64,000 nt of DNA from Halichondria panicea. Taxonomy: Eukaryota > Porifera > Demospongiae > Suberitida > Halichondriidae. Under the pieces are notes generated by a model. It was not told where the DNA came from, made no database searches, and saw nothing but the letters and a program-made list of their open reading frames with translations. Below are positions 9,201-41,033 of the stretch, in pieces. The position numbers and the translations under genes are program-made. Location of the stretch: positions 1,911,501-1,975,500 of the forward strand of contig NC_087387.1 of the NCBI RefSeq assembly GCF_963675165.1, read 5' to 3'. The stretch's first letter is position 1. Every line of letters begins with the position of its first letter.

Positions 9201-9528
9201 GTGAATTGCACCGACCCATGCATGCACTATAGCGATGAAGACACAATAATTTTTTTAAAATTGAACTATATCCATCAACAATTCTAGTGTTGGAAGATTT
9301 GAGCACAAGGCAATATTAATCAATAAGCTGTATAGAAGAGTGCATGCAGTGCACATAAACACGCCACGTACGCAGCAACAACAATTGTGTCTGCAATGAT
9401 ATAAGCACCAAAATATAACATACCTTAATGGTGACTGATTCACAGTCAGGTGAGGTCCTCCCCGTGCTGATGCTCAGCTGGACGTCGAATGCAGACGGCC
9501 CTGCATCATCTGCAGCTACTCTCGCCAT
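229..9528 (-). CDS. Tandem-FERM domain protein (27 exons, ~1006 aa)
   Basis: Exons in transcript order: 9424-9528, 8469-8562, 7089-7186, 6813-6948, 6555-6614, 6305-6456, 6177-6245, 6060-6106, 5853-5928, 5686-5796, 5195-5281, 5055-5135, 4712-4805 (GC donor), 4105-4358, 3713-3922, 3455-3529, 3136-3270, 2967-3021, 2830-2905, 2655-2769, 2405-2461, 2275-2348, 1907-2075, 1302-1412, 1069-1134, 741-896, 229-486. They total 3021 bases and stay in frame. Module 1: ubiquitin-like F0 and F1 lobes (about 20-200, ending in a talin-like LLLRKKFF strand), helical F2 (about 200-316) and a PH/PTB-like F3 (about 317-405). A proline-rich linker (PPPPG, DPPP) follows to about 558. Module 2: ubiquitin-like F1 (about 560-690), F2 (about 690-805, with ALLTQVYFGD) and F3 (about 805-905, with WFGINQHGI). 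The 85-residue tail carries three imperfect repeats rich in TTP and DQP. FERM modules link membranes or integrins to actin. There is no motor, talin rod or kinase. Paired FERMs are known in Dictyostelium FrmA and MyTH4-FERM myosins. Function here is inferred only. Confidence 0.78.
488..513. repeat. (GT)n microsatellite at the last splice acceptor
   Basis: Uninterrupted GT dinucleotides directly abut the last exon of the FERM gene. On the minus strand the CA run ends in the CAG acceptor. Length changes here could affect splicing of the repeat-bearing C-terminal exon. Confidence 0.85.
4405..4620. mobile_element. ~210-bp TTCGCG-type foldback element, copy 1
   Basis: The ends carry CGTATAG...CGAAAATTTCG and the inverted form ...AAATTTCGCGCTATACGG. 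The internal sequence matches 10531-10738 in the opposite orientation, including shared core words such as GGCGTGGCTT and GAGGCCATTCCACGAAATAT. It sits in intron 13 of the FERM gene. It has no coding capacity and looks like a MITE. Confidence 0.7.
8740..8826. repeat. Hairpin element, CCAGGCC-type family
   Basis: Terminal inverted repeat CGTTCCCAGCC / GGCCTGGGAACG, with an AT-rich interior. It lies in intron 1 of the FERM gene. The ends resemble the hairpins at 16446, 19715 and 41690. Confidence 0.6.
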
Positions 9529-10114
9529 CACACACCGCAAATAAATGGTATGATCACTAGCTGTTAGCTAACTATTATACACGAGCTGGTATAGTATGGG
9601 AGAGAACAGCTGGGTATAACTTGGCTGCAAAGTGGCCTCACTCAACTGTGCTAAGCAAATTTGCTCAATGTAAGCAGACAGAAGGAACAGCTAGCTAGTT
9701 CAGCATGGAGGTTGCTGGGCTTGAAACTGAATGAGCAACTGGTGTAGTGAGCTGGAATGTATAGCCGGTAGTTATGGATTCCACAAACTTAACTCTATTA
9801 GTTGTGGGGAATTTGATAACTCGTTTGTAATTTAGAGTGCATAATTAAGTGCATAACGCTGTGACTAAGATACTAATTGAGAGAAGCCAGCATTATGGAT
9901 AATACCCACGAAGGTATCTTAACTTGGTTGAACCACCATTTTTAACAAGTAGTAAATTACACTTTGAATTAATTATATTTTGTCACCTGCCATAACAATT
10001 AATTATTACTGTATACTGAACTGGAACTCATTGATCAACAAAACCTATACGTATAAGTGCAATAGTGCTCTCAAAAAAATAAAAACTGTTCCAGCCAAAT
10101 ACATTCGTTATCTG
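9529..10114. other. Spacer between the lactone oxidase stop and the FERM start
   Basis: About 590 bp between two minus-strand genes arranged head to tail. No ORF or recognisable repeat was seen. It presumably contains the FERM gene promoter and 5' UTR on the 9.5-kb side and the oxidase 3' UTR on the other. Confidence 0.5.
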
Positions 10115-20370: not shown

Positions 20371-23300
20371 ATGGACACAGACACCAGTCAACAAGACTCT
20401 GAGCTAGAGTAAGAAAATTACATAATATGTGTTGTCACTGTATAGTATAATTACATATCAAGTAATTCTCTGTATGACTGACCCCCCCCCCCCCCCCCCC
20501 AACCATCTATTTTGCACAGTGCTCAAAAGAAGCTAGCCAAGGACTTATGGAAAGCTGTACACAATCGTAATGTCATCAAAGTGGTGTCCCTGTTGGAACA
20601 GGGGGCAGACCCGAACCACCAGCTCTACTGGAGTAAGGAGTGGTATACAGATCCTCCATTACACAAAGCTTGCTTGAGGGGCCACCTTGAGATTATGAAG
20701 ACACTGGTTACCCATGGAGCTCGCACTGATAAAGGTGATGGGACGGACAACATGACTCCACTTCACTATGCATGCATGGGAGGTTACAAAGAGATGGTGA
20801 AGTATTTGACTAAGGAGGTCGAATGTAGCACTGGTAAGTAGTCATTATATTTGCATGATTGTATAATTTTGTTCACAATATACTATATAAAATGGCCTCC
20901 TATATATATACCGTTTTTCTTTGATACCGTTGATTGAATAGACCCAGTCCTGTTAAATATTCCTTGTATAACTATTGTATTTGACTGTCTGTAATGTATA
21001 CATGTAGATGTGAGGGATTATGAGGGACAGTCACCACTGGACAGAGCTCTGGAACATCTGTATAATGATAACTGTGTGGATGTTGCCCTCTATCTGATGA
21101 GCCGTGGCTGTGGTTGTGATGAGGATAAGGCCAAGTTACTGTGTGGAGTATGTCGGAGTGGTAAGCTGGATGTGGTGAAGGAACTGGTTGAGCAACACCA
21201 AGTTGACCCCAAAAGTGAGTGTTGACTATGCAGGGTTCTGCCCACAGTGGTCAGTAGTGGTTGGCACCGACCACTGCAGTTCTATAAACGACCACCACTT
21301 ATACCTCTCTGCGACCACTATATAGATCTAGTAACTCTATACAGCTAAGCTAGCTAGCTAAAAGTCTGTTTGCGGAAGTTATGTGGTAAATTATGGCTTC
21401 ATTTATGCTTTATGTGGTGGACAAGTATGCCTGGGACTTCTAATGCTAACTTTTAGCTGGATAGAAGCGCTTTTTAACAAGGAATCCAATGGTATATATA
21501 TGAATTTCAGCAAAGTTATAACAACTTAATGAAGGTCACACTCTCACACAAATAGACTTTAGCTACAGTTGTAGCTGTTCTGAGCATGCCATTAGTCTGC
21601 AGTAGTACTGCATGGCTTACTCAGCAATATAACAAGTTAGTAAATAGGGCTCATGTAAAGTGTATCTAGAAAGTGAAAGCACTAAGAGAATGCAGTGATA
21701 TCATTGTAATGATATTATACAGTGTAATCACCGTAATGGGTGTAATCATATATTCTGAACTATTATTTTTAGACTATATATAGTGCTATACATCCAAAGA
21801 CTTAGAGATAGACAGTAGTCCTACTTCTAAGAGGAGATGCCAAGAAACTGATTCCAGTGCTAGTGCTAGTGCTAGTGATGATAATGCAGTTTAACTAAGA
21901 GTTATACTGCTGATGAGTTCGAGTCAAGCCACTCCACAGCAAGTGAGAGAGGAGGAAAGCAGGCCACACGATTTGCAAATGACTGGCTTTTGGGCTTCAA
22001 AAAAGAAGAGAAGACTAACAATCTAGACTAACAATCTATTTTTAGTGATTCAATGTTAACTGATTTTAGCATGTTTTAAATAATATCAGTACTAAAATGT
22101 TCTGGTGTAATTTGTCTCTAGAATTGCTGAAATTTAATGTAGCGTAAATAAACACTCACATTTTTCCCTATTATGGTCAAGCCACCACTCAACTCATCCT
22201 GGGCAGAACCTTGCTGTTTTTAAATGGCCTCTTTAATATAATGTGTTCACTAATGCTGCGGATCCCATTCAGTAAGCCAATTATAAAAACCGATCATTGC
22301 GATTTTTATATAGTCACTTGTGTGACATCAGCGAGAACACACAAGGTATATCTTTGGTACTTAATGTGTCAATGCAACAAAGTCCTGTTCAATTAAATAT
22401 AACTATTGCGTTTTACTGTCTGTAATGCAGGGGACATATAATATTATAGCTTTATTGTTTCCTATACTTGCCCAGAAACCCCCTTGCTTGCTCCAAAAAT
22501 TGGTGGAGCTAATCATGTGTGCATGCATGCGCATTGGAGACTATAGCTATATATACATGTATAATTATATTATACATTAAACATTTTTATGGCACTACTG
22601 CACCCTTTTTCCTTTCTAGCTATATACGCCCCTGTGTTATTACAGATGTGAAGGGTGATAAGGGACAGTCACCACTGGACATAGCTCTGGGACCTCTGTA
22701 TAGTAATGAACGGTGTGTGGATGTTGCCCTCTACCTGATGAGCCGCGGCTGTGGTGGTGATGATGACAAAGCCAAGTTAATGTGTGGAGCATGTCAGACA
22801 GGAAAGCTGGGTGTGGTGAAGGAACTAGTTGAACAACACAAAGTTGACCCCAAGAGTGAGTATAAAATCCCAATAAAAACATTTGCAACAGTTGCTGGGA
22901 TTGGCCGGGGGAAACACCAAAAGCGTGGAAACAAGAAATCCGCGAGAGCATAACTATAACGTTATTTACAATACTAACACGTATAGTTTTCGCGAAAGTT
23001 TGATTTTTTCGCTGTGCTTTTTTCAACGCTATTTGGTGGCAATCCTAGCAATTTTCCACATTGCTGGTAGGATTTTTGGGGGACAATTTTTCATGGACAT
23101 AATGTACATTTGTGCAAACTAGTGAAATGTTGAGTGTTTGAGTGTTGATAAATCTTGTGCTAGATACAGTATGAAGGGAAACGATAAATATTGTTTCTCC
23201 CTTGATATAGTGTTGAGCACAGGAACACATGTTACATGGTAGTGATTATGTGGTGGATTTTCAAGTCTGTAATTATGCCTCGGTGCGCATGCGCAAACGA

Positions 23301-26300
23301 GGTATACGATAGTGTGTGTGTCTGTCTGTGTGTCTGTCTGTCTGTGTAGACTGCTACAGCTGCTCAAGGATCAATCAAGTGCAAGTATAAGAGTTTCTAT
23401 AGGCTTCCAGTCAGCTTTCTTGTGGATTGGCAAAATAATGCTTCGTTCTTGAGTTATGCCTAGTTTTGCTTACTTGGAATGCCATTGCAGCCTTTTCAGA
23501 AGAGTGCGTAGCAAAACTTGTTTACCGAGTGTTGTTATACTCTACTTAGTATAGTTAGCTCTGCACTAGAACGCAAGCTACTGGTAGCTGCAAGAGTGAA
23601 AAGAGAGCTGCAAGGCTCTGCTGATGCAGCCATTCATTTTACTTGGACTTTTGGCATCAATCGTTTTTATTAACAATCATGGTCGATCATTACCCACTCT
23701 TTGAGTTTCCTTGTGATTCTGGATTCTGCCTGCATACAGCAAAATTAACCATGATAATTATATTATCACTGTGTGTATAAAAGCTGTATTAGTAGCTTTA
23801 TGTTATGTAGCTTTGGCACCTCCACCGAGGCATCAGCACCCGCGGTGCACACTGAATATGTATTGCTCACTGTGGTCAGACATCAAAGGATTGCACTACT
23901 ATTGTAAATACATGTATACCATATAGCTGGTAATTTTTGTGGGTAAAATATTCGTGGTTAGAGCCTCAACCACGAAAACCACAAATATTTGACCCATGAA
24001 AATTAGGCATATGGTGATATCCATCTGGAAGGACTCTCTGGGCATGCTGTTACCTTGTCTGATCATGCTATATAAGAGAATGTGAGACATGGCTGGGGTC
24101 TTTTTATTCCACTGAGTTTCTGGTCAATATGAATGTTGTAAAATGTCAAATTATGAATGATGTAAAACTGTAAAATGAACTGTAACATAATAGTATGATA
24201 TAGATCCAGTTAGGGTTGCTTGCTTGCTCACTTTCTAGCCAGCTTATGATCGAGTCAGCTCTCATCACAGGGACATCCGGTTACTGGGTGGGGTTCGAAA
24301 TGACTGCATTATAGCGCATTCTCAAATATAAGCGTATAGAGCTTTGCTATTGACCCCTTGAGCGTATGTGTGCTAATAATCCTGGGTCTACAGTATACCT
24401 AGTCTATACACCTATATAGGTACTATCAGCTTAGTGCTCTGCTCAGGTGTATTAAGGCACGTCCAGAATCAAGAACAGCCAACGTCACATATATCAAAAA
24501 GTATTCAATATTAAACATAGTAATTGCACATTTTGTTTTGTCATAATAATTTAAGTTTCCTTAATGAAAAAAAAGATCATGTGACTATCATGTGACCAAT
24601 TAACATGAAATTTCCTTGTAAAACTAAATTATAAAAAAACCATTTGTTCCAGCTTAGTTAGATCCTATCTTTTCTTGGAATCCTGATGTACATATCATAT
24701 ACTGATGAAATCCTGTTGCGCAAAAGCAGATTCATAGGTAATCATGGTCTACACAAACAACATGCTAAGATTTACCTGAATTGTCCCCGAGATCTCCTCC
24801 TAACATTCTTGTTTGGTTGCACTCTGTCTTGCGCAGCAGGAAACAAGTTCTCTACTATCTAATAGTCTTAGTTAAGGCCTTTAATAACTACTAGGTAGCT
24901 TACAACAAATAGTTTTTCAGGGTTTTACACGATCAACTAGCTACGGTCAACTTCAGAAAGCTAAGTACAGTGTCATGTGACCGAAGCTCCAACCCCACTA
25001 GTAATTGCAGATGTTTTCCACCCACGCACGTGATAAACATTCCAATGCGATGACACTTGTGTATGAATATCATTATAACAAAATTCCTTGTAATTTTAAT
25101 TTGGACAGTCCTTAATGCCCCTGAGTGAGCCGCTGTCCTCGAGAACAATTAAGCGTTTGAAAATAGCATGTGTTCGATAATCTGTGGTTTACTCTAGCTT
25201 TTGGTAGCTGCAAGAGAGCTGCAAGGCTCTGCTGATGCCGCCGTTAATTTCAGACTTGGACTTTTGGCATCGATCGTTTTTAACAACAATCATGGTCGAT
25301 CATTACTCACTCTTTGAGTTTCCCTATGTGATTCTGGATTCTGCCTACATAAAAATGTTTATGGGATAAAACTTATTGTTAGCTTTGACACCTCCTGGCT
25401 CCACCGAGGCATATCAGCCCCCGTGGTGCTTTCATTATGCCTCGGTGTGCATGCGCAAGCGAGGTATATGGTATAGTGTGTTTGTGTGTGTGTCTGTGTG
25501 CTCAGGATCAATCAGGATCAATGAAGTACGCATTTCTCTAGGCTTCTATAGTCATGTTTTCTTGGATTTTAATCAGTGGTGGATTTGCCAAATAATGCTT
25601 CGTTTTCTCGAGTTATGCCTAGTTTTGCTTACTTGGAATGTTATTGCAGCCTTTTCAGACTTGTCTGTCTATTCTTAGTAGTTAGCTCTGCACTAGAACG
25701 CTAGCTATTGGTAGCTGCAATAGTGAAAAGAGAGCTGCAAGGCTCTACTGTACTGATGCAGGCAGCAATTTATTTTAGCTTTCAGACTTTGTATACTTTT
25801 GGCAGCATCAATCATGGTGGATCATATCCCAGTTGAAAATTATGATATCTGTGTGTATTAGCAATAGCTAGTAGCTTTATGTTATGTAGCATTGATCGTA
25901 GCGATATACCGTTATACATAGCGTGTATATTTCGAGGGTATAATTAAATGTTTGTGGTTTTCGCTGATTAAGCATGTACCACAAACATTTATACCCAGAA
26001 AAAGGGAGACTAATTGAGCATAATCAGCCAAGGCCTATAGCAACCACTCTGATGCAGGAAGGACAATAACTTGGAAGATAGAGTAGCTGAGGTCGTTCTG
26101 TTCGCGCAGAGGAGGTATACTAGACATCACGCATCACGCATTACCTGCACTTCAGTAAACAATCTACATTTAACCGCAAAGATTTAGTTGGCATGAAAAG
26201 TGCAGACTTTCAAGGAGCCAAAACAGCAGCGATCCCAAGGTTATTTCTCTGAAATTTAGCTATCATGTAGTTAAAGGATGGTACTAACTATGGACCGGAT

Positions 26301-29300
26301 CAGCGACCCCAGTGGTAGCTATCCCGCGGCTCAAGTAGCTTGAAATTCACTGTCAAACCTAGTAGTTTTCACTAGGCTACTATGGAGAGCAGTCTAATAC
26401 AGTGTAGGGAGATTAACTCAGGTTAGTTGACGTCTTCCTTAACAGTACGTAGTTTACTCAAGTGAGCTTGATCTACCACAGGCACCATAATGAGCTATAT
26501 ACACTGACATCGAAGGAAAGGTTAAAGATCAAAGGTTCCATGGGTTCCATGGAACCTTTCACACAAGAACACACTGGAGATTAATGCACTAGCTAGCAAC
26601 TATAGTGAACTCAGGTAGTTATACTAGGCTGATGTCATGCAATTGATATGTGGGCAGGGCTCTCTAATGTACATGCTCATTGCTTAGGAAAAGTGCCGAA
26701 TTTTTTTTTTAGACTGTTTTGGAATCTCCCTCTCAAACTTCCTATATTCGCTACTGTCCACACTTCTATTCCCATTTGACTGATGACGCATGTGTTTCTC
26801 GAATACTGGCCGCTCTCTTTGAGGGATGATGATTCGAGGCCAACCCTGAGCCTCTGGAAGAGTTACATTAAAGATGGCAGAATTTCATAGGAAACAGCAG
26901 TCAAGTCTGAGAGGTCATATATCATGTGCCTCGTGAAAGCGATCGCAAATATGAAAAAAATTTACCGTGGCAAAGACTCTATTTGTTTGTAAACTGATTG
27001 CAGAATATCGTTATACAAAGAGGAAAAGCTTCTCAAGAAACTGTACTTACTCACTTTAAACTTAGTCAGTCACTCATTTGTGGTGAGGCCAATAGGAGCG
27101 ATATCAGTGCACTTCTATGCATGTGAACTTTTTTTGAATCTCATAACTTAGTTCTGATCCTTCCCTGCAGAGATATAACAGTTTGAACATGAGAGAAAAT
27201 ACGTTAAACTGTTAAAAAGCTACAAAAGTGGTGCCAATCCTAGTTAAGAAACTGTTAAAATGAAAGCACCGCAGGTGCTGATGCCTCGGTGGAGGTGCCA
27301 TGCAAAGCTAAAGCTAATATATTATCATGATGAACAATTACTGCATTAATTAATTTGCTGCATGTAGGCAGAATCTAGAATCACAGGGAAACTCGAAGAG
27401 TAGGTAATGATCGACTATAAACGATATTCCAAAAGTGCAAGTCTAAAATTCAATGGATGCACAGCAGCTCTCTTTTCACTCTTGCAGCTACCAATAGCTA
27501 GCGTTCTAGTACAAAGCTAACTACTAAATAGAGTAGCAACACTCCATGGACAAGTTTTTCTATGCACTCTTCTGAAAAGGCTGCAATGGCATTCCAAGTA
27601 AGCAAAACTAGGCATAACGCGAGAACGAAGCATTATTTTGCAAATCTATGAATTAAAATCCAAGAAAACATGATTAGAAGCCTATAGAACTCTTACCTGC
27701 ACTTCATTAATTGATCCTTGAGCAGATGTAGCAGTCTACACACTACACACACAGATAGATACACAAACACACTACCGTATACCTCGCTTGCGCATGCACA
27801 CCGAGGCATAATAATCTTTAAATGCATGGTCTCTTTATAATTGGTGGAGAAGTGTTATATACCTTTGTTTCTATATATACCCACTCTTGTCAGGTGTAAC
27901 TAACTATGCTGGCAAGACTCCTCTTGACTTGGCTACACAGAGGGGTCGCACTGAAGTTACTGACTACCTCAAGTCTCTTCCACAACAATGTAAGCGTACT
28001 AGGATCAGAAGTATACACAGTATGCTACAGCTACTCTCTCTATATACAGCTGCTGTGACTGGAGACAGTGACTCCTGGACCATGAGTGAGGAGAATGGAC
28101 CACCACCAACAAAGAATCAAAACGGTAACCTGGTAGATCCTACTTGCTACCCATCAATATGATCATCATAATAATTATACCGAGTAATTTTCGTGATGTA
28201 AAATTTGTTTAACATGATTTTCGTGAGTAAAAATTTCACTTGCTTCAACATACAGGCACTATATAGCTGCATTACATGCACTGCATTGCCTGCGTTCCGG
28301 TAAACCATGCTCTAGGTTTTTGTGGGTAAAATGTTTGTCGAGGTCAGCTTGCCCACAAAGTAACAAATTTTTATCCCATGCACCGCTATACTTATACTTG
28401 ACATAATTGTCGTTATTGTACACGGTTCCAAGCAACCTAATTATAGCGGCTATTACGTATGATGTTATCTCCAGCCATTATTTTACGAATGGCCAATTAT
28501 ACGTAGTATGATAGTGATTCTTAAATTGTCACCTGTGTCAACATTGCTGGGTGTGTTTGCAGGCACTCCATTGACTGAGGAAGACTCTGATGCTCTAGAA
28601 AAGCTGCTCCTAGACAACAAAATCAAAGGATTTGCTTTGACTGGTGAAAGGACATATCAGACAGTTGTACACCACCTTTATGAGCTCGGACACGAGGAAC
28701 TAGCTTCAAACCTCAGATCAAACCTTGACAAAGGTATAGTAGTTATAGTAAAAGCTGTGGGTATAAAGTAGTTGGTGGTATTGATTATCTTGTTATTGAG
28801 CAGGAAGCGATGAAATGGGGGAGATATAGTTGAACATCTTTCAACTACCATAAATTCTGTGTTGATTTTGTTGATTTTCTGAAAGTGACCTTTAAAATAA
28901 TGTTTGATCGGAAACCACACACACTAATTAACGCGTAGAAGCTATTTACCCGCTCTTCTTTCTTTTCTTCATCAACAAGGCAGTGATAGACCTCATTTTC
29001 TGCTCATTGTATACCTAGTTGGCTAGCTATAATATAGAGTTAGTAGCCAGAGCTATGACGTGAGTCGCATGACACTTAAAATCAAGAGTTCAGGAGGCAA
29101 GGGCCTCCTCTGCCTCATTGCTAATTGCTATAGCTACGCCCCTGCATTGTGGAAAGTTACCTAGCTAGAAAGTAATTCAGGAGGCCCTTGCCTCCTCTGC
29201 ATGCCTCGCATTGTGGAAAGCTAGCTAGCACTATAGTTTACATTGTACAGTTTATTATATTAGAATGCTGCATGGCACCTCTGTCCCTTGTTCCGAAAGG

Positions 29301-31746
29301 AACTGCTATTCATCTCAAATATCCCAGATCCAATTATCAAGCCTGAGAAAGCTTGGAACTACTGCTAGAATCTTCAAACAATGAAAAAAAAACAGCTTTA
29401 CACAAGAGAAACTGACTGGCAATCAGTCCAAAGATATTGATCAGTCTAGTAAGTAGGCGGGGCTCACTTACTTGTGCAATTAATAATGACATCATTATTA
29501 TTATGAGCATACGCAGTGAGCTGGTCAAGCCACATTGAGACTTAGCTGAGCAGTGATGCTACTGGCCTCGGTGCCAGGCCGATTTTTTTATAATAGACTG
29601 GAAGGGGGGAAAATACGGCATGGTACCTATTGCGTGTGTGATAGTGTGCGCATGCGTTAATTTACTCTCCATAATCTGGGAATCCCCCTTTCTTTCATCT
29701 ATTTTCTATCTATGTACGTACATCAGCTTAGCTCTCTATTGCGTTGGTCTAGAAGGCTTGAACACCAGTCTGAAGCCATAAGAGGCTCTCATCTACGCAC
29801 CTCTACGATGGCTGTATGTCAGGATGTCTTAGCTTGGATTAGTGTACAGGCTATGGGAAGTTTCTTTAATAACTGCTACTATAGCTTGCGAAGACAACCC
29901 GGCTATAGGACCATCGTAAAAGAGCCTTCTGTCTTCAGACTAGTGTTCAAGCCTTCCAGATGGCATAAGCCACAGCTTCACGGAACTCAGTCATGGAGAT
30001 AAAGTATTATGGTCTTAGTAAACGAACTAATTTACGGTATAATTATGCCTCGAGGCATAGCCGCACAAGGGATACGGTAAAGCTGACTGTGTGTGTGTGT
30101 GTCCGTCTGTGTGTGCGTGTGTGTGTATTCCAGCTATAACTGCTCAACGGTTTCAATGTGGCGAAAGTTAATAGCTTCTATATATATAGGCTTTAGCCAC
30201 GTTCTCTTGGATTTTGATTCGTGGATTTGCAAACTAAAGCTTTGTTCTCGAGTCATGACTAGTTTGACCCACATTGAAGGCTGTTGCAGTCTCTTTAGAG
30301 TCTTTCGTAGCATCACCTGTCTTGCATTAAAGCACTAGCTTTTGTTAGCTGCAAGAGTCAGAAAAGAGCTGCAAAACTGTACTGCCAGAGTGGAGCAGCC
30401 ATTGCAAACTTTAACCTAGCGGACGCACCCCTTCTCTGCGCATGCGCATTCAATCCCACGCGTGTGTGAGATCCTGAGACAGAATACAATTTTTCTTCTT
30501 CTTTTCATGAGGTTCTGGTGAGCCACAAAACACTACTGTCTGTAACAATGCTATACCATGTAGATACACAACTCTTTTCTTATTCATTGACAGATAATGC
30601 AAAATACTACATTGTAGATCTACATGTAGCCTCGATTCTAGACCGCACTTCCTCGAAGAGTGGGCCTGGTATCGACCGCTTGCGCATGCGCTAACCATTA
30701 GCCAGATACTGGCTAACGTAGGATAATAACGTGTATGTGCACAGTAAAACAATGACGTCACAACGAACGGAAGTGAATTGAAGGAAGTAGACTAAGTAAT
30801 CGATCTTCGCCAGATACCTATAATCGGCGGCTATTGCTCGAAGCAAAAGACGATTTTACATAAACTAACTAGTGTTCAAGCTGGCGCTGTGCTAATGCCT
30901 CTCGCCATGATTTGCTTTCGCTCAAAAGTATAGAAGAGAAAGTATAGAAGAGGAAAAAGTGTATAAAATAATCTGTCTAAAACTGACTTGCAATTGTATA
31001 ATTATGGTATCATTGTTGTGTTTTGTGGCTGCTTATACCAGGACCTCAAGGATCTAGGAAGCAACAAAGAAGAAGATTTTGTTTTCAATTAATTATAAGC
31101 GGAAGTGCATAATTATTTCATAAAGTTAGCTTATCTATATAAAGTCACTGAGAAGAAAAGACTTATTACATGCATCTATTGTTGTATTATGTGGCTTTAA
31201 TACCAGGACCTCAAGAAAGAAGAAAATTGGATCTGTAGTTCATGCAGTGTATAATTATAATATTTAAGAAGAAAAGACTTGTGTACATGCATATTGTTAT
31301 CTATAGTAATGTTTTGTGGCTTACCAGGCCCTCAAGAAAAATATGATTCTGCCAGGAGGATCTGGATCTGGGGAATGAGCGCGCATGCGCATTACATCCA
31401 TAGGAATAATTAAAGGGTGTGTCCAAAGAGATCAATTTCACAAATGGCTACTGCTAGCTAGCTGTTTTAACAGGTATTTTCTGAGTCTTGTAGCTAACAA
31501 AAAGCTAGCGCTTTAGTGCAAGGCTAACTCATATGTTGAATAGAAAGTTTGTGCGGACAGATGATGCTATGAAAGATTCTGAAGAGACTGCAACAGCCTT
31601 CAATGTGAGTCAAACTAGCCATAACTCGAGAAAGAAGCTTTAGTTTGCTAATCCACGAATCAAAATCCAAGAGAACGTGGCTAGAAGCCTATAGAAGCTG
31701 TTAGTTTTCGTCGCATTGCAACCGTTGAGCAGTTACAGCTGGAACA

Positions 31747-31786
<40 letters not shown>

Positions 31787-34700
31787 CAGCTTTACCGTGT
31801 CCCTCGTGCGGCTACGCCTCGAGGCATAACTAGAGTAAGGCATCTATATTCAGACACAATGCATGTTCAGACACTCATTCTGAGGAAACAAGCAGTGATA
31901 AAAAATTTTCTTTTGCACCATCTGATCAAGCATGTGTTACTATGAATCTGTGCAAAAAAGAATTGAGAAATGTCAACTACTAAGTCTTCAAGAGCTGAAA
32001 ATGTGCTAGTGTCTGATAAACGGTAAGAACAGACAAAAAAATCGATCATCAGACACAACCTACCGTTTCTTCTGTAGGGGGATATGCTGAGAGTCACATA
32101 GTAATTATGTAAGGACAATAACTAAACAATAAAACCCCCAAAGTTGGAGTTGCAAAACGCTTGTATGTCCATGCAGCAATTATTTCTGCTGAGTCACTCA
32201 CGTATCAATGATCAGACAGAAAATGAGGTCAAAGGTCAAATGTTTTTGGCATCCCACGCAACTGGGGTCAAAGCTCAAATGTTATTTGTGGGCGTGTACG
32301 TGGATGCCAATGACATTTGACCTTTGACCCATTTGCTGTCTGATCATTGATACGCGACTGACTCAGCAGAAATAATTGCTGCATGGCTAGCTAACTTTTG
32401 GCTAGCTATAATTATAACTCTAGCTAGCCAACTAGGTATAATAGAATGAGCAGAAAATGAGCTTCATCACTGCCATTTACACGAGCTTCTACGCGTTTAT
32501 TAGTGAGTGTGGTTTCCGGTCAACCATTTTGCGGGGGCGCAAGCACCCGGTATGCCTCTTTCTTGTATATCATAATAAGTTCATTGTCAACAAAACAAAA
32601 TAATAAGTCAAACTAGCCATAACTTGAGAAAGAAGCTTTAGTTTGCAAATCTACGCATCAAGAACGTGGCTAGAAGCCTATAGAAGCTGTTAGTTTTCGT
32701 CGCATTGCAACCGTTGAGCAGTTACAGCTGGAACAGACACACACACGCTAACACAGTCAGCTTTACCGTATCCCTCGTGCGGCTACGCCTCGAGCCATAA
32801 TGAGACACTAGTTGAAGTTGTTAATAGGCTAGTTATAGTACTTGTAAGCGGTCCTCAAAACACTGTTTTCTAATCGTTGCTTTATAGATTCTCACGATCA
32901 TTCCCCGTAATTATAATGTAAGGTGATTACGGTAAAAGGTTTGTATATATCCGTTTTGCCACTGTGGAATGAAGCTCAACGCATGGGGTGAATGCTCTAT
33001 GAGCATCTTAATTGTTTCGTTATAAATAATACGGAGTGACCTCTTCTATACACTCTTGAGCAAAGCAAAACATGCCGAGAGCTTGCAACATTCATTACAC
33101 TGATGTAACAGCTTACATTTTTCTATTTTTAGTGTACATAACTATAGTAAAGCTGTTTCTCTTGCAGCCATCAAATGGCAGCATCGATACATCGACAGAC
33201 TCATGACTCTAATGGTCGATAAGGAAACGATTGATATGTGCACTTTGAAACTCTGTCTCGTTGGTCCGCCTCACGTAGGGAAAACAACCACACTCAATCG
33301 TCTACTGCAAGTGTACGAAAACATTCAATCAGCTGGAGACAAGGCAAAACATCCAAGCACTCTACTAGCTAACTGCATCCAGGTTATGGCGTTGATTAAT
33401 GAAGATAAGTGGATATCTTCCATGGATGTCGATGAAGAAGCCAAGATGATTTTCGGCTATCTATGTGGCAAAGTAACTCTCGATGAAATAGATCTACCCA
33501 AAGAGGAAATGACAAAGGCAGAAAGTAGTCAAGGATTGGAAACACATTCTAGTGATAAAGACACTACCCCCATCAGCCCAGCTGAAGAAAATTTACCTCA
33601 CAAAGTCAACACACAGACTGTAAAACAAGCCACACTTACTGACTCAAAAGATAAAGCTGCTGTAGACCACCAAAACAAACTCGCACAGGTCATTCTTCGT
33701 TTGCAAAAGCTGATTAAGAGCGGAAACTACTCTCAAATGGCCAAGTGTCTTGGCAACACCTTACTAAACATCAACGATGTCGGAGGTCAACCAGAATTCC
33801 TGGAAATGCTACCAGCCCTGAGCAATGGTCCTGCCATGTATCTAGTGTTCTTGGATCTGAGCAAGGAGCTTGATAAGCCCTATGATATCCCCTTCAGTCG
33901 AGACGGTAAAGTCATCACTCCTTATAAATCAATGCACACAGTGAAAACCGCTGTCTCTCAAATCCTCTCATCCATTGCTAGTGTGCGTCACATGTCGGAA
34001 ATTTCAAAGCCTCTCTTAAAAACTCCTCAGTTGAAAGACAAATTTGAAGCATTTCTCACTGTGCCTCCAGTGGCAGCCCTAATAGGTACCCACAAAGATA
34101 AGCTTGGCGGAGACTCAGCAGATAGTCTAGAAAGAGAAATATATACCAGAGATAAAATGGTGGAGATAAACACAGCATTGAAGCCAATCACCAAGACTTT
34201 TGAGAACATTTTAATTTTTCCCAGACAAAAATCTGACACTTCTAATGATAAAAGAGGAAATTGCTCTTCTGACAGGATGTCCTTTTTTGCCCTTGATAAC
34301 GATAAAGGCACTGAGAACGCTGAAATTTCTCCATTACGTGGCTTAATGAATAATATATTCTACTCTCGCTTCGGCAAAACCTCTCTTCCAATATCAAAAA
34401 ACTGGCTTGTACTAGGAATTATTCTTCGAAAGGAATATAAAATTGCCACAGTAGCAGATTGTATTGAAATAGGCAAAATGTTGGAGATGGATGAAGAAGA
34501 AACCAAAATCTGTCTACTCTACCTTCATTGTATAGGCTCTATCCTGTACTATACAAATGTACCCGATGATGACGATCCATGCTGGCTCCTCAAATGTCAC
34601 GTCATCTGCTTACCTCAAGTGATCTTCGATAGCATAAGCCAACTGATAATCGTGTCTATGCTGAGTGTTCATGGTGGAGGCTACGACACTGAGTTTGAGC

Positions 34701-37700
34701 GAGCAGAATTGATCAGGAAAGGTCAGTTCTCACAGGAGGCCATTGAGAGACATTGCAAATTAGATGTTCAAGTTACCAATAATCTGGAAAATAAATTGCT
34801 GATACCATCCGGACCGCTTGTGAAGCTTCTCAAGCACCTCAACCTTCTCTCTGAGATCACACACAAAGACAAAGATAGTGAACGAATCACCTACCTCATG
34901 CCGGCTATCTTGGACTGTGCTACAATAGACAAGGTGAGCAACCCACCTCAACCAGACACCAACAACCCAGAACCACTCAACATCACATTCAGCTTTGGTT
35001 ACGTGCCAACAGGAGTCTTCTGTGGACTCATCACTCGACTAGTTTCCCAAGGCCCTCATGGAATTCTCGGATTGACATGGGAATTGATGGAGGAAGATAG
35101 TGTTAAACGAAATTGCATCTCCTTTTACGTTGACTATGTACACAAAGTGACACTGCTCTCTCACGACAGAAGCTACGAGATACGAGTTGAACGCAATGCA
35201 GAACAGATTGATTTCTCACTTCACGATCTTTGCTCCTACACTCTGTCAGCAATCATGTATTCTCTCAAGATCCTGTTCCCAAAGTTGAACCTCAGTGTTG
35301 CATTTCCATGCTCCTGCCCCAAACACGCAGCAAGCAAGAGTCTCAACAATGTTTGCACCCTTATTCAAGGCCGAAAGATCCACTTCCTGTGTGGTAGAAG
35401 TCCTGTCACCCTCAGTAAAGGACAACAAGTGTGGTTGGGGAAGGTAAGTTCTTGATCATGTTGGGTAGTTTTGAGCATACATGTATTATGCTAAGATAAC
35501 TTGTTTGGAGAAAAGGGACCGTTTAAATGCATTGTTTAAGTTATGGCTGATATAATTCATATGTAATTCATATAATTGTGTCATGTAGCGTGAAGCTCGC
35601 AGTGGTGTGCAAGTAAAATAGTAGGACAAACTTGTGGTGTATGTGTGTGCTCATGTTTTGTTAGAAATGTTGTGAAAAAAAGAAAACTTTCTTTTTTGTC
35701 TTGCCCATACATGCAGCATGTGTCTATAGGAAGCAGCACGGAACTAGAGGTGCTAAAGTTTGCTGAGGGTGGTTTCTTATTCCACTGGAGCAAAGAGGGC
35801 TCCAGACGTCAGATCAAGACAACTGATGATCAGCCCAACACTCTGAGCTTCCAGAGTGTGAGAGAGGAGGACTTTGGTCACTACCAGTGTGAGGTGAAGA
35901 ATGCAGCTGCTGGGAAAGTGCTCTTCACTCTCTACACAGCTCTCTACAAAGAGGAGACAAGTTAGTTATATAACATTATAATTACTGGACTGTAATTTCA
36001 TTCTATCAGATCGTAATTCCCACAATAGTTTATATATAATAACTATATCCCGTTGCTATGCTGTTGCTATATATTATGCACCATAATGCACTGAATCTCA
36101 TATTTTGCACTGTATCTCATATTCTGCACTGACCACAAAGCCTTGAGGGATTTAATGATAATTATATACATGGCATTTTTACATGCCGCATAGCACAGGC
36201 TTACAGTTAAAATAATTACTCAGGTACATTAAGGACTGGGACCAGCAATTATTGCTGATTCAGCGGAAACAAAGCTCCGCCCACGATTTTTACTATCAAT
36301 TGTGCAGTAAAAATGGAGTTTTGCTGCTCTAATCTTTCGCTCAAATTCCGGAGCATAAAACCTTAGTTAAAGTGTTTACTTAATTTTTAGTGCAGTAGTT
36401 AGTTCAAAGCTATATACAGGCACTACCGTTAGCGCCTAACAGTGGGATCAGCTAAAGGTGAGATTTTCTAAATAAAGTACTTTTTCAGCTTAATATTTTG
36501 CATGTAAAGGCTAATAATTTACTTTTCATTGATCCCACTGTTAGGCGCTAACGGTAGTGCCTGCATATAGCTTTGAACAACTAACTACTGCACTAAAAAG
36601 TAAATAAGGTTTTATGCTCCGGAATTTGAGCTAAAGATTACAGCAGCAAAACTCCATTTTTACTGCACAATTGATAGTAAAAATCGTGGGCGGAGCTTCG
36701 TTTTCGCTGAATCAACAATAATTGCTGGCCCCGTCCTTAATGTACCTGAGAATTACTGTCTGCTTGAACGGTCCTAGGACACAATCACTGGTTGGAGGCA
36801 TGTCAGAGTTGAGAGCAGCTTTTTTGCAGTAGAGTTTGAGGTGGGGCTGTTCGAGTTGCTCTGCAGCTTTGCCTTTGGGGTTGGGCTGTATTGCAGCAGC
36901 AGCGTTGAGAAGAGAAAGTGTTTTTGCAACGTTCGGGGGGTGGGGCTGCTTTACTCTTGTAGCATCGAGCGAGGAGCCCAACGTTTTGTGAGTCAAGCCA
37001 TTCGTCGTACCAATGACAGTAATCTTGAAGGGTCAGATACTAGTGTCTTTGAACAGAGATGCAAGCAGCTGCGACTGTAGAAAAGCTGTGGTGTATTTTG
37101 TGTTGCTAGGGATATAAACTACGTGCACTCGGGATGCATGGTGTATATTGCACTCAGCCCTCAGGGCTGGCGCCCTTGTGCCCATGTTATATCTATTGAC
37201 ATATTCCTATACCGCATACATAATTATACAGATCCTTTATCCTCAGGACAGCGCAAAAGATCATTGCCATCAGATAAAGAAGTTGAAACTCTGTCAAAGC
37301 GTCCGAAAGAAGATGTCACTGTACAAGGTATGATATAAATAGATTTCAGTTATTGCTCATTGGGCATGGTCAGACATCAAAGGATTATACTACTGTTGTA
37401 AATACATGCAGTAAATGCCTGGATTATCAATATCACCCAGGATGTGGTCAATATACCTGATGATATTGTGTACATTAATTTCACAGCCTCTACACAGGCT
37501 CTCCTTTTTCTGTTCTTTATCACAACAGTATTAATTGGAGGAATAAAGCAAAAATTGAGGAAGCCTGTATCAGGAAGTCGCGTGAGGGTAGAAGGGTGGT
37601 AGAAGGGTGAAAATGAGCGTGGGCATGCAGAGCTAGATATATTAGACTGCAGATCTATGACTAAGACTTTTCCTGCAGCCTAGTCTGCAAGCTGGACATA

Positions 37701-40700
37701 GAGCAGTTTATACAAGCTAGCTATACCTTAGCTAGATTTATACTATAGCTAGATTATGTGTTTATATTTTTACCCATAGTACATTTTCTTGTGTCTTTCT
37801 AAATGCTAGATCTAAACTAATAATAGCTTAATCATCATCATCATCTAGCAGGTAGCTACTGCCACCACAGAGCTGGCCACGCTGGTTCCCTGACTTGCAG
37901 TAGCTTGGTGGTTGTCTCAGTACAATCTGAATTCGTGGGAGAATACCTTACGTCACGATTGTGGGCTACATATCGCCCACGTTCATAAAAATCCTTGTGG
38001 ATCACATGATTTCCCAAACCAGGCCTTACTTTTCCTTAACTATACGCCCATTTCTTTCTTTGCTGCTTCATTTCGTCTATTCTTCTTTTTTTGCTACCTT
38101 CTATTTAAATATATGCATGAAAAATGACAACAGCAAGAAAAAGGAAGGCCTGCTATACTATATACATGTATGTGCATTGTCATTTTTAGGAAATAAAACA
38201 ATTAAGGTATTTTTGGTCTGTATACAGTTCATGAACATGAGACTACAGCGTCTGCAGCTCAGTTGTGTCAAGAGTGCTCGGATGAAGCTCTTCTCCAGTT
38301 GTCTACCGAGATTGCTGGATATGACAAATACAAGCTCAGGCTGGGCCTCAGTGATGCTGACATAGACGCTATCGATCAAAATCCCGCCACGTTTTATAAT
38401 ATCCCAGGGAGATTTTACACTGCTCTGAAGATGTGGAAGAGTAAAGGTATTGATTTGGATAATCCATCAAATTCAACAGCTACTTATGGTCAATTAGTGG
38501 ACATTGCATCAAAGATTGAGGACAGAGAGGCAGTTCGTAGCATTCACAAGGCCGCATACAAGTGAGTTATCTAATCTAGTTTAGTGGTGGATCTAGGAAA
38601 AGGGAAAGGGGGGTTACGCCCACTTCTGGTGAAGACTAGGGAAAATTCCATTCATAGCCAGGGGACGTCTCATGCATCTTAGACTTGCGTAGAGTGCTAC
38701 AAACAGTCAACTATAGCTAGCCTATAGGCTACGATTGATTTTGAACACTCGTTTGGCAATTGATACATCAAAACAACAGGCATACAATCTCATTACAATA
38801 GCTACAAAAACTGATAAATAGCTAGCTATAGTAGCTGTAGAATGAAAGGGGGGGTTCCATAGCACCCTGGGATCACCCTGTAGATCCGCCACTGTAGTTG
38901 AACATCACTTCGACCATTGAGCTTCCAGTCAGACTCTTGTTAAACCGGCCACCCTTGGGACAGTGTGTTGCTTGGCTGGAATAGCGAGATGGCTGTATTT
39001 CAGAAAATAGCCACGGCCCCTACCTCGAATCTAATGACTAATTTTGCGTTTCATTTTGCTTTCTATTTAAGTGCTAAACCACACCCAAAACAACGGCCGT
39101 ACATTAAGAACCTAGTTTGGACGCAGCAGCCAGTATAGTCTCGTGAGCCATACACAAAAACTGATACTACGTATGGTGACAATAATTATATAGCCAGGTT
39201 TTTGTGTTGCAATGGATTGCATCCTGTCATGTAGTGCAAAAACCCACAGTCTTCTCCACAAGATAATTATATAGACACTCTACAGCAACTAAAATGGAAG
39301 AAGCTATCATGTGAACATGTGAACACAATGGATGATTCATACACAACAATTGTAGATCTATATTATCTATAGAGTTGCACATACAATGTTGTCGATTGCA
39401 CTGATTTTTGTTTCCATCACACATTATCATGTTCAGTAACTCTGGAGAGAAGGGGTTTTGACTATTTCTGTCTGGGATAATGAAACCATTTTTGGGCTCC
39501 CTATTCTTTCTTTTCACTGCATGCAGCTATCCATCAGCTATAGATATTCAAGAAAGCAATACAATGATAGTCTTGATCCTATAGAGTGCCTGATTGTACA
39601 ACCAACAGTACTTGTCAACGGCAGACGATAGCCCCTTTTGAATGCTTGCAGTACATTTTTGAAATTCTTGAAATGCCATCATTCTGAAATTCCAGAACTC
39701 GACACGAAAACCTGGCTATATAGTCACCATACGTATATGGTATCAGTTTTCAAAGTATGGCGCATAAGACTACAGCCAGTACTGGCCAGTATACGGAATA
39801 GCGAGTGGCCGCATTTCAAGGCAACTGCGGTAGGCACATAAAGCGTGCGCGGTTGTTTCTAATGCCCACACGCGGTAAGAGACACACAGAGCGCGCAGTT
39901 AAACAAAGAGCCGCCAACAAACTTTAAGATCAGTCTGCACAAGGTCAAAAGTCAATAAATCATATCTGGATTCTACTTAACGCAAGGTATTCCTTGCAGA
40001 CTGCAGGACATGGTTTTTGTATACCGGCCATTTTGTTTGGCATGGATTGCTATAACTATAGATGCACAAAAGTTGCCTTGAAATGCAGGACATGATTGAT
40101 TGACCTTTGACCTTGTGCAGACTGATCTTAAAATTTGTTGGCGGCTCTTTGTTTAACCGCGTGCACTGCACTGTGTCTCCTATCGCGCGCGGACATCAGG
40201 AACAACCACGCACGCTTAATGTGTTTACTGCGAGCAATTAGAATTAAAGCACGCGCGGTTCATTGTGGCGGTAGGTGGAGGTGGGTCACCCTTCTCGGCC
40301 ACCGTACTTGTGTACACTTGCAGCTATTATCAAATGGCATTGTATTGGTGCAAGCACATGTACACTTAGCCTCGAATCCAGGTTGATTAAAATACGGCCT
40401 GATGTTTAATTAATAATAGGCGTAAATACGGCCTGATGTTTAATTAATAATAGGCGTGGCCCGTCCACACCCATGTACTATCTACATTGTATGACCTATG
40501 GTGAAGCTTAGCCAGCTAGCTGTGGCCCTCTATTGTGTTGCCAGAAGGCTTGCACACTAGTTTGAAGCCAGAAGAAGCTCTCATTTACCTCTATAATGGT
40601 CGCATGGTCGCGATTTTGAACTTGGTTTTTGTACTGACTATGGTAAGTCTTTGATTTTGTGCTTCCAACTGTGACTAAACGACTATCGTAGAGGTAGATG

Positions 40701-41033
40701 AGAGCCTCTTCTGGCTTCAGTCTAGTGAATAATACAGCCGGCTGCGCAAGCGCAATGCCAAACCGAATATGACGTAAATACCAGGTTAGGAATAAGTCCA
40801 AAACATTACAGGTTTACTAACGTATAACAAATCCCCCAGATTCAGTTTGCGCATGTGCACTATCACCCGTGCATGCAATAGATACCAGGCCGTATTTTAA
40901 TAGGCCTGGATTCGAGGCTAATGTACACTAGGTTTGCAAGTTCATTACTCTTGTGTCTCCCTCCTCATGCAGGACTGGAGGTCATGGATCAGTCAAGACC
41001 ACAATCCCCATGCACTACTCTGGCAACACTTAG
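20371..41033 (+). CDS. Ankyrin-Roc-COR-Ig-death domain protein (ROCO family, DAPK-like without kinase)
   Basis: Twelve exons: 20371-20408, 20520-20833, 21008-21214, 22646-22855, 27894-27989, 28050-28124, 28563-28733, 33168-35443, 35717-35960, 37247-37327, 38228-38561, 40973-41033. They total 4107 bases, or about 1368 aa, in frame. Residues 13-288 are ankyrin repeats (DPPLHKACLRGHLEIMKTL, TPLHYACMGGY, KTPLDLATQRG). The ~750-codon exon holds a Roc GTPase: P-loop GPPHVGKT at 403-410, DVGGQ at 574, THKD at 678-681. A COR follows (about 780-1129; FGYVPTGVFCGLITRL is COR-B-like). Exon 9 is an Ig-like domain (about 1130-1210) with FHWSKEG and DFGHYQC but no first cysteine, so it is probably cytosolic. 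Exon 10 is basic (RKRS...KRPK), a possible nuclear signal. Exon 11 (about 1250-1345) is a death domain (YKLRLGLSDADIDAI, TALKMWKSKG, ATYGQLV). There is no signal peptide or membrane span. It resembles DAPK1 minus its kinase, plus an Ig insertion. The 20-aa last exon is the least certain. Confidence 0.82.
20482..20500. repeat. Poly-C tract before the exon 2 acceptor
   Basis: Nineteen cytosines about 20 bp upstream of the acceptor of the first large ankyrin exon. It replaces most of the usual polypyrimidine tract. Confidence 0.9.
21230..22213. mobile_element. hAT-like transposon remnant in intron 3 of the ROCO gene
   Basis: The ends are CAGGGTTCTGCCCA (21230) and the complement of AAGGTTCTGCCCAG (about 22200), matching the CAGGG start usual for hAT elements. 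A short open piece at 21896-22020 reads like ADEFESS...TRFANDWLLGFKKEE, similar in flavour to regions of zinc-finger/hAT transposase proteins. A TCT/AGT-rich serine run precedes it. No clear target duplication and no full transposase. Confidence 0.5.
22866..23095. repeat. Inverted-repeat element related to 42280-42360
   Basis: Words such as GTTGCTGGGATTGGCC, GAAACACCAAAA and GCGAGAGCATAACT recur at 42272-42360 (GTTGCTAGGATTGGCC, CACCAAAAAGC, GCGAGAGCATAACT). Part is inverted in the right half (TTGGTGGCAATCCTAGCAA). It lies immediately after exon 4 of the ROCO gene. Confidence 0.5.
23272..23850 (+). mobile_element. Dispersed ~580-bp repeat, family G (full copy)
   Basis: Starts ATTATGCCTCGGTGCGCATG, then a GT/TCTG microsatellite, then a conserved body (GCTGCTCAAGGATCAAT, AATAATGCTTCGTTCT, GAGTTATGCCTAGTTTTGC, AGAGAGCTGCAAGGCTCTG). 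Ends GCACCTCCACCGAGGCATCAGCACC. No ORF. Other copies lie at 25195, 25434, 27262 (inverted) and, as a second subfamily, at 30042, 31435 and 32600. Confidence 0.75.
23930..24012. repeat. Hairpin of the TTCGTGG type
   Basis: Inverted pairing of GTGGGTAAAATATTCGTGGTT with AACCACGAAA...AAATATTTGACCCA. Similar hairpins occur at 25910-26005, 28310-28385 and 50890-51000. Confidence 0.55.
25195..25432 (+). mobile_element. Family G repeat, 3' part only
   Basis: Matches the 3' half of the 23272 copy (AGAGAGCTGCAAGGCTCTG, GACTTTTGGCATC, ACTCTTTGAGTTTCC) and ends ACCGAGGCATATCAGCCCC. It directly precedes another copy in the same orientation. Confidence 0.7.
25434..25880 (+). mobile_element. Family G repeat, copy 3
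   Basis: Begins ATTATGCCTCGGTGTGCATG and shares the body words of the 23272 copy (ATAATGCTTCGTTTTC, CTAGTTTTGCTTACTTGGAATG, GAGCTGCAAGGCTCTACTG). It is truncated near its 3' end. Confidence 0.7.
27262..27812 (-). mobile_element. Family G repeat, inverted full copy
   Basis: Reads as the reverse complement of 23272-23850: opens GCACCGCAGGTGCTGATGCC, passes through AGCTCTCTTTTCACTCTTGC and TAGGCATAACGCGAGAACG, and ends TTGCGCATGCACACCGAGGC. Together with the + copies it makes a large inverted repeat within intron 4 of the ROCO gene. Confidence 0.75.
29560..30041. repeat. Repeat related to the 40371-40921 element
   Basis: Shares blocks such as CTCTATTGCGTTGGTCTAGA, GAAGGCTTG, GTCTGAAGCCA and the CTCTCATCTACGCACCTCTA region with 40525-40610 (CTCTATTGTGTTGCCAGA, AAGAAGCTCTCATTTACC). 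It begins with CCTCGGTGCCAGGCCG, like the hairpin family. Confidence 0.55.
30042..30400 (+). mobile_element. Family G repeat, second subfamily
   Basis: Opens ATTATGCCTCGAGGCATAGC, with a GTGT microsatellite, AACTGCTCAACGGTTTCAAT, TTTTGATTCGTGGATTTGC and AAGAGCTGCAAAACTG. The plan is the same as family G but the sequence differs. Confidence 0.65.
31435..31828 (-). mobile_element. Family G second subfamily, inverted copy
   Basis: Reverse complement of the 30042 type. It contains ATCCACGAATCAAAATCCAA, AACCGTTGAGCAGTTACAGC, a (CA)n run of about 40 bp and the terminal CTACGCCTCGAGGCATAA. Confidence 0.65.
32170..32385. repeat. ~215-bp palindromic element
   Basis: CAATTATTTCTGCTGAGTCA...ATCAATGATCAGACAG pairs with CTGTCTGATCATTGAT...TGACTCAGCAGAAATAATTG. 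Internal words AAGGTCAAATG and CATTTGACCTTTG also pair. It lies in the long intron before the ROCO exon. The flanks (CTAGCCAACTAGGTATA, CGAGCTTCTACGCG) recur inverted at about 28930-29030. Confidence 0.75.
32600..32801 (-). mobile_element. Family G second subfamily, inverted partial copy
   Basis: Repeats the terminal ~200 bp of the 31435 copy almost word for word (AAGCCTATAGAAGCTGTTAG, GAGCAGTTACAGCTGGAACA, CGTGCGGCTACGCCTCGAG). Confidence 0.65.
36222..36749. mobile_element. 528-bp foldback element with ~215-bp arms
   Basis: Outer ends CTCAGGTACATTAAGGAC and GTCCTTAATGTACCTGAG are exact complements. Pairing continues through GCAATTATTG, AAGCTCCGCCCACGATTTTT, AATTGTGCAGTAAAAATGGA and GGCACTACCGTTAGCGCCTA up to GTGGGATCA, leaving a loop of about 90 bp. 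It lies in the intron between the Ig exon and the basic linker exon of the ROCO gene. Confidence 0.85.
39838..40226. mobile_element. ~390-bp inverted-repeat MITE
   Basis: Arms pair over AAAGCGTGCGCGGTTGTT / AACAACCACGCACGCTT and over TAAACAAAGAGCCGCCAACAAA with AGATCAGTCTGCACAAGG. The loop carries no ORF of note. It lies in the last intron of the ROCO gene. Confidence 0.7.
40371..40921. mobile_element. ~550-bp element with CCTCGAATCCAGG ends
   Basis: Ends TAGCCTCGAATCCAGG and CCTGGATTCGAGGCTA are exact complements. Near the left end a 35-bp unit containing CGGCCTGATGTTTAATTAAT is tandemly duplicated. The interior is shared with 29560-30041. It ends about 50 bp before the last ROCO exon. Confidence 0.75.

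Follow-up and report, generated by a model that had tools for sequence, protein, structure and literature searches.

A 64,000-nucleotide stretch of the genome of the sponge Halichondria panicea (contig NC_087387.1, positions 1,911,501 to 1,975,500; the window) contains, at 20371-41033, a gene for a predicted protein composed of ankyrin repeats, a Roc-COR GTPase core, an immunoglobulin-like (Ig) domain, a basic linker and a death domain, in this order. The gene is one of a large family in this genome, in whose closest clade an Ig exon follows Roc-COR as a rule, and this Ig exon is a cassette exchanged between members, a finding that is new here. Such exchange would be expected of an immune or self-recognition repertoire that changes fast. 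The reading that we favour, with a probability of about 55%, is that of an expanded ROCO repertoire working like the NLRs, with an ankyrin sensor, a GTPase switch, an Ig adaptor and a death effector.

The family was delineated by searching the genome exon by exon. The Roc-COR exon gave at least 65 matches (59 of 322 candidates scored), with paralogs up to 87% identical, the Ig exon 70, the death exon 112, exon 6 (a short segment between the ankyrin repeats and Roc-COR) 28, with paralogs up to 89% identical, and ankyrin exon 2 at least 150 (150 of 1778 candidates scored), the weakest of which are general ankyrin repeats. When these matches are mapped together, they repeat the window's exon order on one strand many times. 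The joint map includes every Roc row (65) and exon-6 row (28) and 69 of 70 Ig rows, an overlapping piece having been removed; the death and ankyrin sets are represented by 105 of 112 and 114 of 150 rows, with mostly the weakest left off. By tblastn, ankyrin, exon 6, Roc-COR, Ig and death lie in this order on contig C4 (L001, L002) and on C1 at 13.3 Mb (L003, L004), and partial colinear loci run from ankyrin exon 5 to death (L006), from exon 6 to death (L007), or from ankyrin to Ig with no window-type death exon (L005). Because its paralogs repeat this order, the run from ankyrin to death in the window is probably one gene.

A 77-aa Roc probe matched all 150 scored candidates (the best 150 of 212 found), 121 of which lie in open frames of at least 500 aa by our own count from the listing; some of these matches may be pieces of one gene, and the unscored candidates make the counts lower bounds. 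A genome-wide Pfam Roc search includes small GTPases and was left aside for counting. Members form an array on C6 (3.35-3.67 Mb) and a dense cluster on C1. Also on C1, a set of three death exons recurs with equal scores at a distance of exactly 23,200 bases (G000:C1:2488613-2491456 and 2511813-2514656), which points to a tandem duplication of very recent date or to duplication in the assembly. The window's clade consists of 56 of the 150 matches, at 71% identity or more. An Ig exon, as placed on the joint map, lies at most 4 kb downstream on the same strand in 55 of these 56, against 0.3 expected, and the remaining member has an interrupted Roc-COR with an Ig about 7 kb further on. An earlier note on this DNA had described the Ig of the window gene as an insertion, which proves too narrow, Roc-COR followed by Ig being the rule in its clade.

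What follows the Ig is more varied. A window-type death exon is found within 9 kb in 17 of the 56 clade members; in L005, L008, L009 and L010 the Ig is followed by different death-like frames (18.3-22.4 bits, just under the cut-off of 22.6), and two post-Ig frames of L012 look death-like by eye, without a Death match. Eight of the 56, all on C1, carry two window-type death exons after the Ig (e.g. G000:C1 2480970 and 2481854). In L011 (at about 7760-8860) and L013 (at about 8815-9720), the strand of the Ig carries, 2.6-3.4 kb further downstream, a CARD-like frame (18.4 bits in L011 and 19.9 in L013, against a cut-off of 23.9) and a TIR frame (80 bits in L011; by eye, a look-alike in L013). These frames may be effector ends of another kind or may belong to CARD-TIR genes next door.

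The Ig exon shows a history of its own. Between the window gene and a gene of the C6 array (L008), synonymous divergence (dS) is 1.7-2.3 in Roc-COR, near saturation, and 0.14 in the Ig (on about 50 synonymous sites); their DNA is 93% identical over 228 bp, with no match outside this tract within the stretch compared. With L006, identity reaches 95.7% over 35834-35974, that is, the second half of the Ig exon plus 14 bases beyond, and the first half of the L006 exon is of the other Ig type than the window's. L025 and L059 are 99.1% identical over 561 bp at the COR end and 95.9% over a later 148 bp, these flanks enclosing an unmatched segment of about 373 bp that comprises the intron and the first Ig half. 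Ig type A is found in 37 of the 56 clade genes and type B in 10; eight have a B-A hybrid and one a partial Ig. COR tails, divided at 72% identity to the window's into class a and a mixed class b, occur in all four combinations with the type of the first Ig half (9, 3, 28 and 15 genes), full type B being found only together with class b.

Tree comparison points the same way: in 55 of the 56 genes (L062, with the partial Ig, was left out), the Ig data reject the COR tree (approximately unbiased test, AU, p = 7.5e-8) and the COR data reject the Ig tree (AU p = 1.4e-78), these p-values presupposing no recombination within a segment, an assumption that the hybrid Ig exons break. Among 1485 gene pairs, 32 combine COR at 0.95 or above with Ig below 0.80, and 248 combine Ig at 0.90 or above with COR below 0.72. 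Concordant pairs also exist: dS is 1.3-1.6 for COR and 1.0-1.2 for Ig between the window gene and genes on C8, C10, C13 and C14, and 0.37 and 0.25, respectively, for a gene on C4. Gene conversion or an equivalent exchange is the simplest cause of this pattern. Constraint alone as the source of the low Ig dS is ruled out by the L025/L059 tract and the discordant pairs.

The end modules are likewise found on other cores. In a ROCO gene at the start of C1 (L014 and L015), ankyrin exon 2, the linker and the death domain are 73-76% identical to those of the window, and Roc-COR is 26% identical, with silent sites saturated; in L020 a death module 61% shared with the window accompanies a core 29% identical. 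These identities on distant cores indicate that end modules are shared between different cores. Of six loci belonging to remoter ROCO clades, three have an Ig-like frame after Roc-COR (L016, Ig_3, 20.9 bits; L020, I-set, 16.3 bits, both under cut-off; L017, by eye), an Ig frame over cut-off precedes Roc-COR in L019, and no Ig frame was noticed in L014 and L018. Two further loci combine ROCO domains with kinases. L023 (G000:C4:7045500-7055400) has LRR, Roc, COR-A and kinase frames in order and is an LRRK-like locus. L024 (G000:C7:580500-588400) holds on one strand an SH2 domain (44 bits), a tyrosine-kinase tail (39 bits), a P-loop frame, COR-A (57 bits), COR-B (21 bits, under cut-off) and a death domain (54 bits). 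This may be a fusion of a Src/Csk-like kinase with Roc-COR-death, in which the kinase comes first as in DAPK and is of a different kind.

The model of the window gene (Table 1) comprises 11 exons, 4167 nt with the stop codon and 1388 aa, remains in frame throughout without stops, and has GT-AG at every intron. Splice sites were chosen by eye and checked by script, and the gene end was adopted from the earlier note, the stop codon of the frame falling there. That note's in-frame joining is retained, whereas its 12 exons and 4107 bases are not; the domain order it proposed is recovered by a Pfam profile search of the joined protein and by the Roc profile of the relatives. The start ATG and donor of the first exon were found again in the C4 copy (the single copy compared), and the acceptor and first 29 nt of the last exon are kept in two of five loci searched (L006, L007) and were not found in the other three (L001, L004, L014). 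Exons 3 to 6 all have symmetric 1-1 phases, exons 3 and 4 being a similar ankyrin-like pair; such phases favour alternative splicing or the shuffling of exons. At its N-terminus the predicted protein shows nothing signal-like, and its most hydrophobic 19-mer falls within COR.

Table 1. Exons and motifs of the ankyrin-Roc-COR-Ig-death gene, in window positions
Feature	Positions	Strand	Basis
Exon 1, start ATG (MDTDTSQQDSEL)	20371..20408	+	Gene model; ATG and donor recur in C4 paralog
Exon 2, ankyrin repeats	20520..20833	+	Gene model, Pfam; genome matches up to 76% identity
Exon 3, ankyrin-like, symmetric phase 1-1	21008..21214	+	Gene model, Pfam; similar exon in L002
Exon 4, ankyrin-like, resembles exon 3, phase 1-1	22646..22855	+	Gene model, Pfam; similar exon in L002
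Exon 5, last ankyrin repeat and linker, phase 1-1	27894..28124	+	Gene model; paralog comparison
Exon 6, 57-aa segment, no Pfam family over cut-off, phase 1-1	28563..28733	+	Genome matches
Exon 7, whole Roc-COR GTPase core in a single exon	33168..35443	+	Pfam, paralog alignments, LRRK2 profile match
G1 P-loop GPPHVGKT	33263..33286	+	Gly32, Gly37, Lys38 and Thr39 invariant in 12
G3 DVGGQPEF	33776..33799	+	DxGGQPxF in 12/12 of each of two sets
G4 THKD	34088..34099	+	12/12; relaxed to GTxxD in wider set
Exon 8, Ig domain	35717..35960	+	Pfam, genome matches, 12-copy alignment
DNA tract 93% identical to C6 array gene L008	35741..35968	+	DNA comparison
Exon 9, basic linker, bipartite-NLS-like pattern	37247..37327	+	Related linkers in L007, L022, L014
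Exon 10, death domain	38228..38561	+	Pfam, genome matches
Exon 11, short C-terminal tail and stop	40973..41033	+	Gene model; partly conserved in L007, L006

By its Roc motifs G1, G3 and G4 the predicted protein belongs to ROCO. A profile of 12 members from the genome, in which the P-loop Gly-Lys, DxGGQP and GTxxD are invariant, has the LRRK2 Roc as its best solved structure (3.3e-5; top 7 of 93 matches), with the P-loop, DxxG and THxD regions lining up, and this match secures the Roc assignment; the profile also matches a bacterial Roco entry, 3dpu, catalogued as a Rab family protein, at 0.02. A PDB sequence search with Roc-COR alone gave nothing under 0.1. COR-A appears in the Roc-COR exon alone at E 0.0032, under cut-off and correctly placed after Roc, and the COR assignment draws its support mainly from the relatives. 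GTPase activity of the core would be expected from these motifs.

Of the other modules, Ank_2 is matched in the joined protein at 4.7e-37, Death at 23.3 bits (cut-off 22.6) and Pfam ig at 21.9 bits (cut-off 21.8), together with Ig_3 at 2e-5, under its own cut-off; a PDB sequence search with the death exon gave just two unrelated matches, above 0.2. The Ig had been said to keep the core Trp and the second Cys and to lack the first Cys, and this description extends to 12 of 12 aligned copies, in which Trp24 and Cys58 are kept and the presumed first-Cys position (assigned by eye) is Val12; it needs qualifying for the hybrid copies, which carry a neighbouring Cys. Diverged copies of exon 6 (33-38%) precede Roc-COR in L008-L011 and L013, none being found in L012. 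The basic linker is conserved in L007 and L022, and nuclear entry of the protein is possible from its pattern resembling a bipartite nuclear localisation signal (NLS), a weak indication given about 0.5 such sites per length-matched shuffled protein.

Ratios of nonsynonymous to synonymous divergence (dN/dS; pairwise Nei-Gojobori, rough for short exons) are 0.21-0.32 for Roc-COR, 0.38-0.62 for death, 0.27-1.59 for exon 6 and 0.46-1.82 for Ig (five comparisons each, the last two based on few sites), and 0.68-0.85 for ankyrin exon 2 (three comparisons). As the death and ankyrin values exceed those of Roc-COR, the ends change faster than the switch. Colinear paralogs, the recurring start ATG and dN/dS together favour one coding gene with no kinase exon upstream.

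By analogy with other ROCO proteins, the window protein would be a cytosolic, perhaps nucleus-entering, receptor-like ROCO that senses, switches and recruits. The N-terminal ankyrin repeats would bind a ligand or host target and the Roc-COR core would shift its nucleotide or dimer state; the Ig, right after COR, may pass this change on or select a partner, as suggested by its position and exchange; and the C-terminal death domain might oligomerise and recruit death-fold adaptors, leading to inflammatory or cell-death signalling. The family has diversified by duplication, sharing of end modules between cores and gene-conversion-like exchange of the Ig exon. The sequences themselves establish the domain content, the gene structure, the family size, the coupling to Ig, the Ig exchange, the end modules held in common with one distant-core gene and the low dN/dS of Roc-COR. 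GTPase activity, ligand sensing, death signalling and an immune role are what we infer from this arrangement, and the case for an immune or cell-death function is strengthened by the family size, the differing death-like ends and the cassette exchange. After lipopolysaccharide treatment of Halichondria panicea, GTPase-related genes are differentially regulated, mostly downward, as are some ankyrin genes, no ROCO being named (PMC8242945, excerpt), a response compatible with an immune role. A bolder version is tentative, and we would sooner bet against it than for it: an animal immune or self-recognition repertoire of more than 100 genes with Roc-COR replacing NACHT, whose intracellular Ig cassette would be renewed by gene conversion of about 140-370 bp, sometimes of half a domain. 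The specificity for partner or ligand would then be set by the two Ig types and their hybrids, separately from sensor and effector.

Several results weigh against the NLR-like repertoire. In the joined protein, Roc (7e-4, 20.2 bits, cut-off 27) and COR-A (0.0073, 16.7 bits, cut-off 35.3) both fall short of Pfam cut-offs, as they do across the window's clade by best E-values; COR-A at E 0.1 is matched by just six of 12 clade relatives (best 5.8e-6), and the window gene is absent from the 60 COR-A matches of a Pfam search of the genome. AlphaFold models built without an alignment are weak for the death exon (predicted local distance difference test, pLDDT, 57.3) and leave the Ig fold unconfirmed (pLDDT 43.5), and the seven Foldseek matches of the death-exon model, five of them death-domain entries, all have E of 2.7 or worse, none being under 0.001 or significant. 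All eight hybrid Ig copies, including that of L006, have a Cys at the adjacent position 11, so that a shifted disulfide is possible in them. The ankyrin dN/dS values stay below 1, short of what would indicate positive selection on the sensor. Near-identical distant copies (e.g. L007 and L033) may be assembly duplicates or uncollapsed haplotypes inflating the counts, and some copies are interrupted by stops or truncated.

Such interrupted copies would fit a multigene family that spread by segmental duplication and is now mostly in decay, with the window copy as a remnant that is no longer expressed; this copy has no stop, and the low Roc-COR dN/dS and the long open frames around most Roc matches leave little credence for decay. 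That an ankyrin gene and a Roc-COR-Ig-death gene are two adjacent transcription units, as the 4.4-kb intron (28734-33167) and the roughly 5 kb between ankyrin exons 4 and 5 might suggest, is highly improbable in view of compatible exon phases and of paralogs with exon 6 and ankyrin exons upstream of Roc-COR, several of them more closely spaced. A kinase-less DAPK relative with a housekeeping role (cytoskeleton, autophagy, cell death) and an incidental expansion would account for the order of DAPK1 minus its kinase; it sits poorly with the Ig after COR throughout the clade, with a large recombining family and with a kinase-first locus carrying COR and death frames elsewhere in the genome (L024), and appears quite improbable. 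Allorecognition, in which the repertoire would mark self and non-self between fusing individuals and a mismatch would trigger cell death, matches a large, clustered, recombining family with a death effector, and in sponges cell death is linked to allo-incompatibility (PMC8195603, excerpt); without a signal-like N-terminus the protein would need to act downstream of a surface receptor, and this alternative is rather unlikely. A chance chain of frames is ruled out by the colinear paralogs and the low Roc-COR dN/dS, and an isolated oddity by the Ig coupling in the clade.

Elsewhere in the window, two plus-strand frames of 631 and 584 aa (54536-56428 and 56906-58657) have no Pfam match. By eye, each has a hydrophobic segment close to its start, and their CPP..C.C motifs are alike; they may form a tandem pair whose uncharacterised products are secreted or membrane-bound. 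A minus-strand frame at 10852-11271 matches D-arabinono-1,4-lactone oxidase at 22.8 bits (cut-off 23.1).

Among known systems, the window protein shares with DAPK1, of the third Roco group, the ankyrin repeats that DAPK1 carries, Roc-COR and the C-terminal death domain, in the same order. It differs from DAPK1 in that no kinase was found, that an Ig follows COR and that it belongs to a large family. The missing N-terminal kinase is borne out, the start ATG preceding the ankyrins and no kinase being matched in the joined protein (Pfam) or in 10 of the 12 flanking frames of at least 120 aa, where short kinase exons could escape; a canonical DAPK is thereby ruled out. The label of a DAPK-like ROCO without kinase was right in domain order and in the missing kinase, and too narrow for an expanded Ig-coupled family. 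In the DAPK1 group the kinase stands before Roc-COR, and nucleotide effects are described on DAPK1 and MFHAS1 (PMC6337361, excerpt). LRRK1 and LRRK2 resemble the window protein in the LRRK2 Roc being the best profile match and in upstream ankyrins, and differ in the LRR, kinase and WD40 domains, none of which is matched in the joined protein (Pfam), so that it does not fit the LRRK group; the LRRK2 match is by itself no evidence against DAPK, since the solved structures may include no DAPK Roc. MALT1 also unites Ig and death folds in one cytosolic protein, and the parallel drawn earlier holds for this co-occurrence and nothing beyond it, MALT1 having no ankyrin or Roc-COR and the window protein no paracaspase match (Pfam).

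In contrast with the NLR expansions of sponges and cnidarians, which combine NACHT with LRR (126 such genes in Dysidea avara; PMC12909245, excerpt), the window family has a Roc-COR switch and an ankyrin sensor, and NACHT is unmatched in the joined protein at E up to 10, so that the protein is no NLR and would resemble NLR-type receptors by analogy of function; both kinds of family form large repertoires, and death-fold domains occur in some of these (PMC12909245, excerpt). The Amphimedon expansion of 357 TRADD-N/death-like proteins (PMC8195603, excerpt) is similar in its lineage-specific death-fold architectures, many with ankyrin repeats, and differs in being based on TRADD-N, no Roc-COR-Ig proteins being described in that excerpt. 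Titles and abstract openings in open PubMed Central gave, among the matches listed, no ankyrin-Roc-COR-Ig-death protein, no sponge ROCO expansion and no Ig exchange. The nearest published parallel among these matches is the brown-algal LRR-ROCO repertoire of candidate immune receptors, with 9-47 genes per species and exon shuffling (PMC11378527, excerpt), which has in common with the sponge family an expanded repertoire, a repeat sensor on a Roc switch and exon shuffling; the algal proteins are LRR-Roc-COR, a few with peptidase or DUF900 ends, whereas the family here has ankyrin, Ig, death, clusters and an exchanged Ig exon. That excerpt (PMC11378527) quotes four ROCO genes for humans, a minimum of 17 for Trichoplax and a maximum of 47 for a brown alga; these counts are exceeded by the at least 150 Roc-like matches in Halichondria panicea, and because members of the window's clade fall under the Pfam Roc and COR-A cut-offs, surveys based on these cut-offs may miss them. 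If the immune role is true, this family would be an animal counterpart of the NLR repertoires built on a different switch, and through its Ig exchange one could test directly how an Ig domain inside the cell becomes variable.
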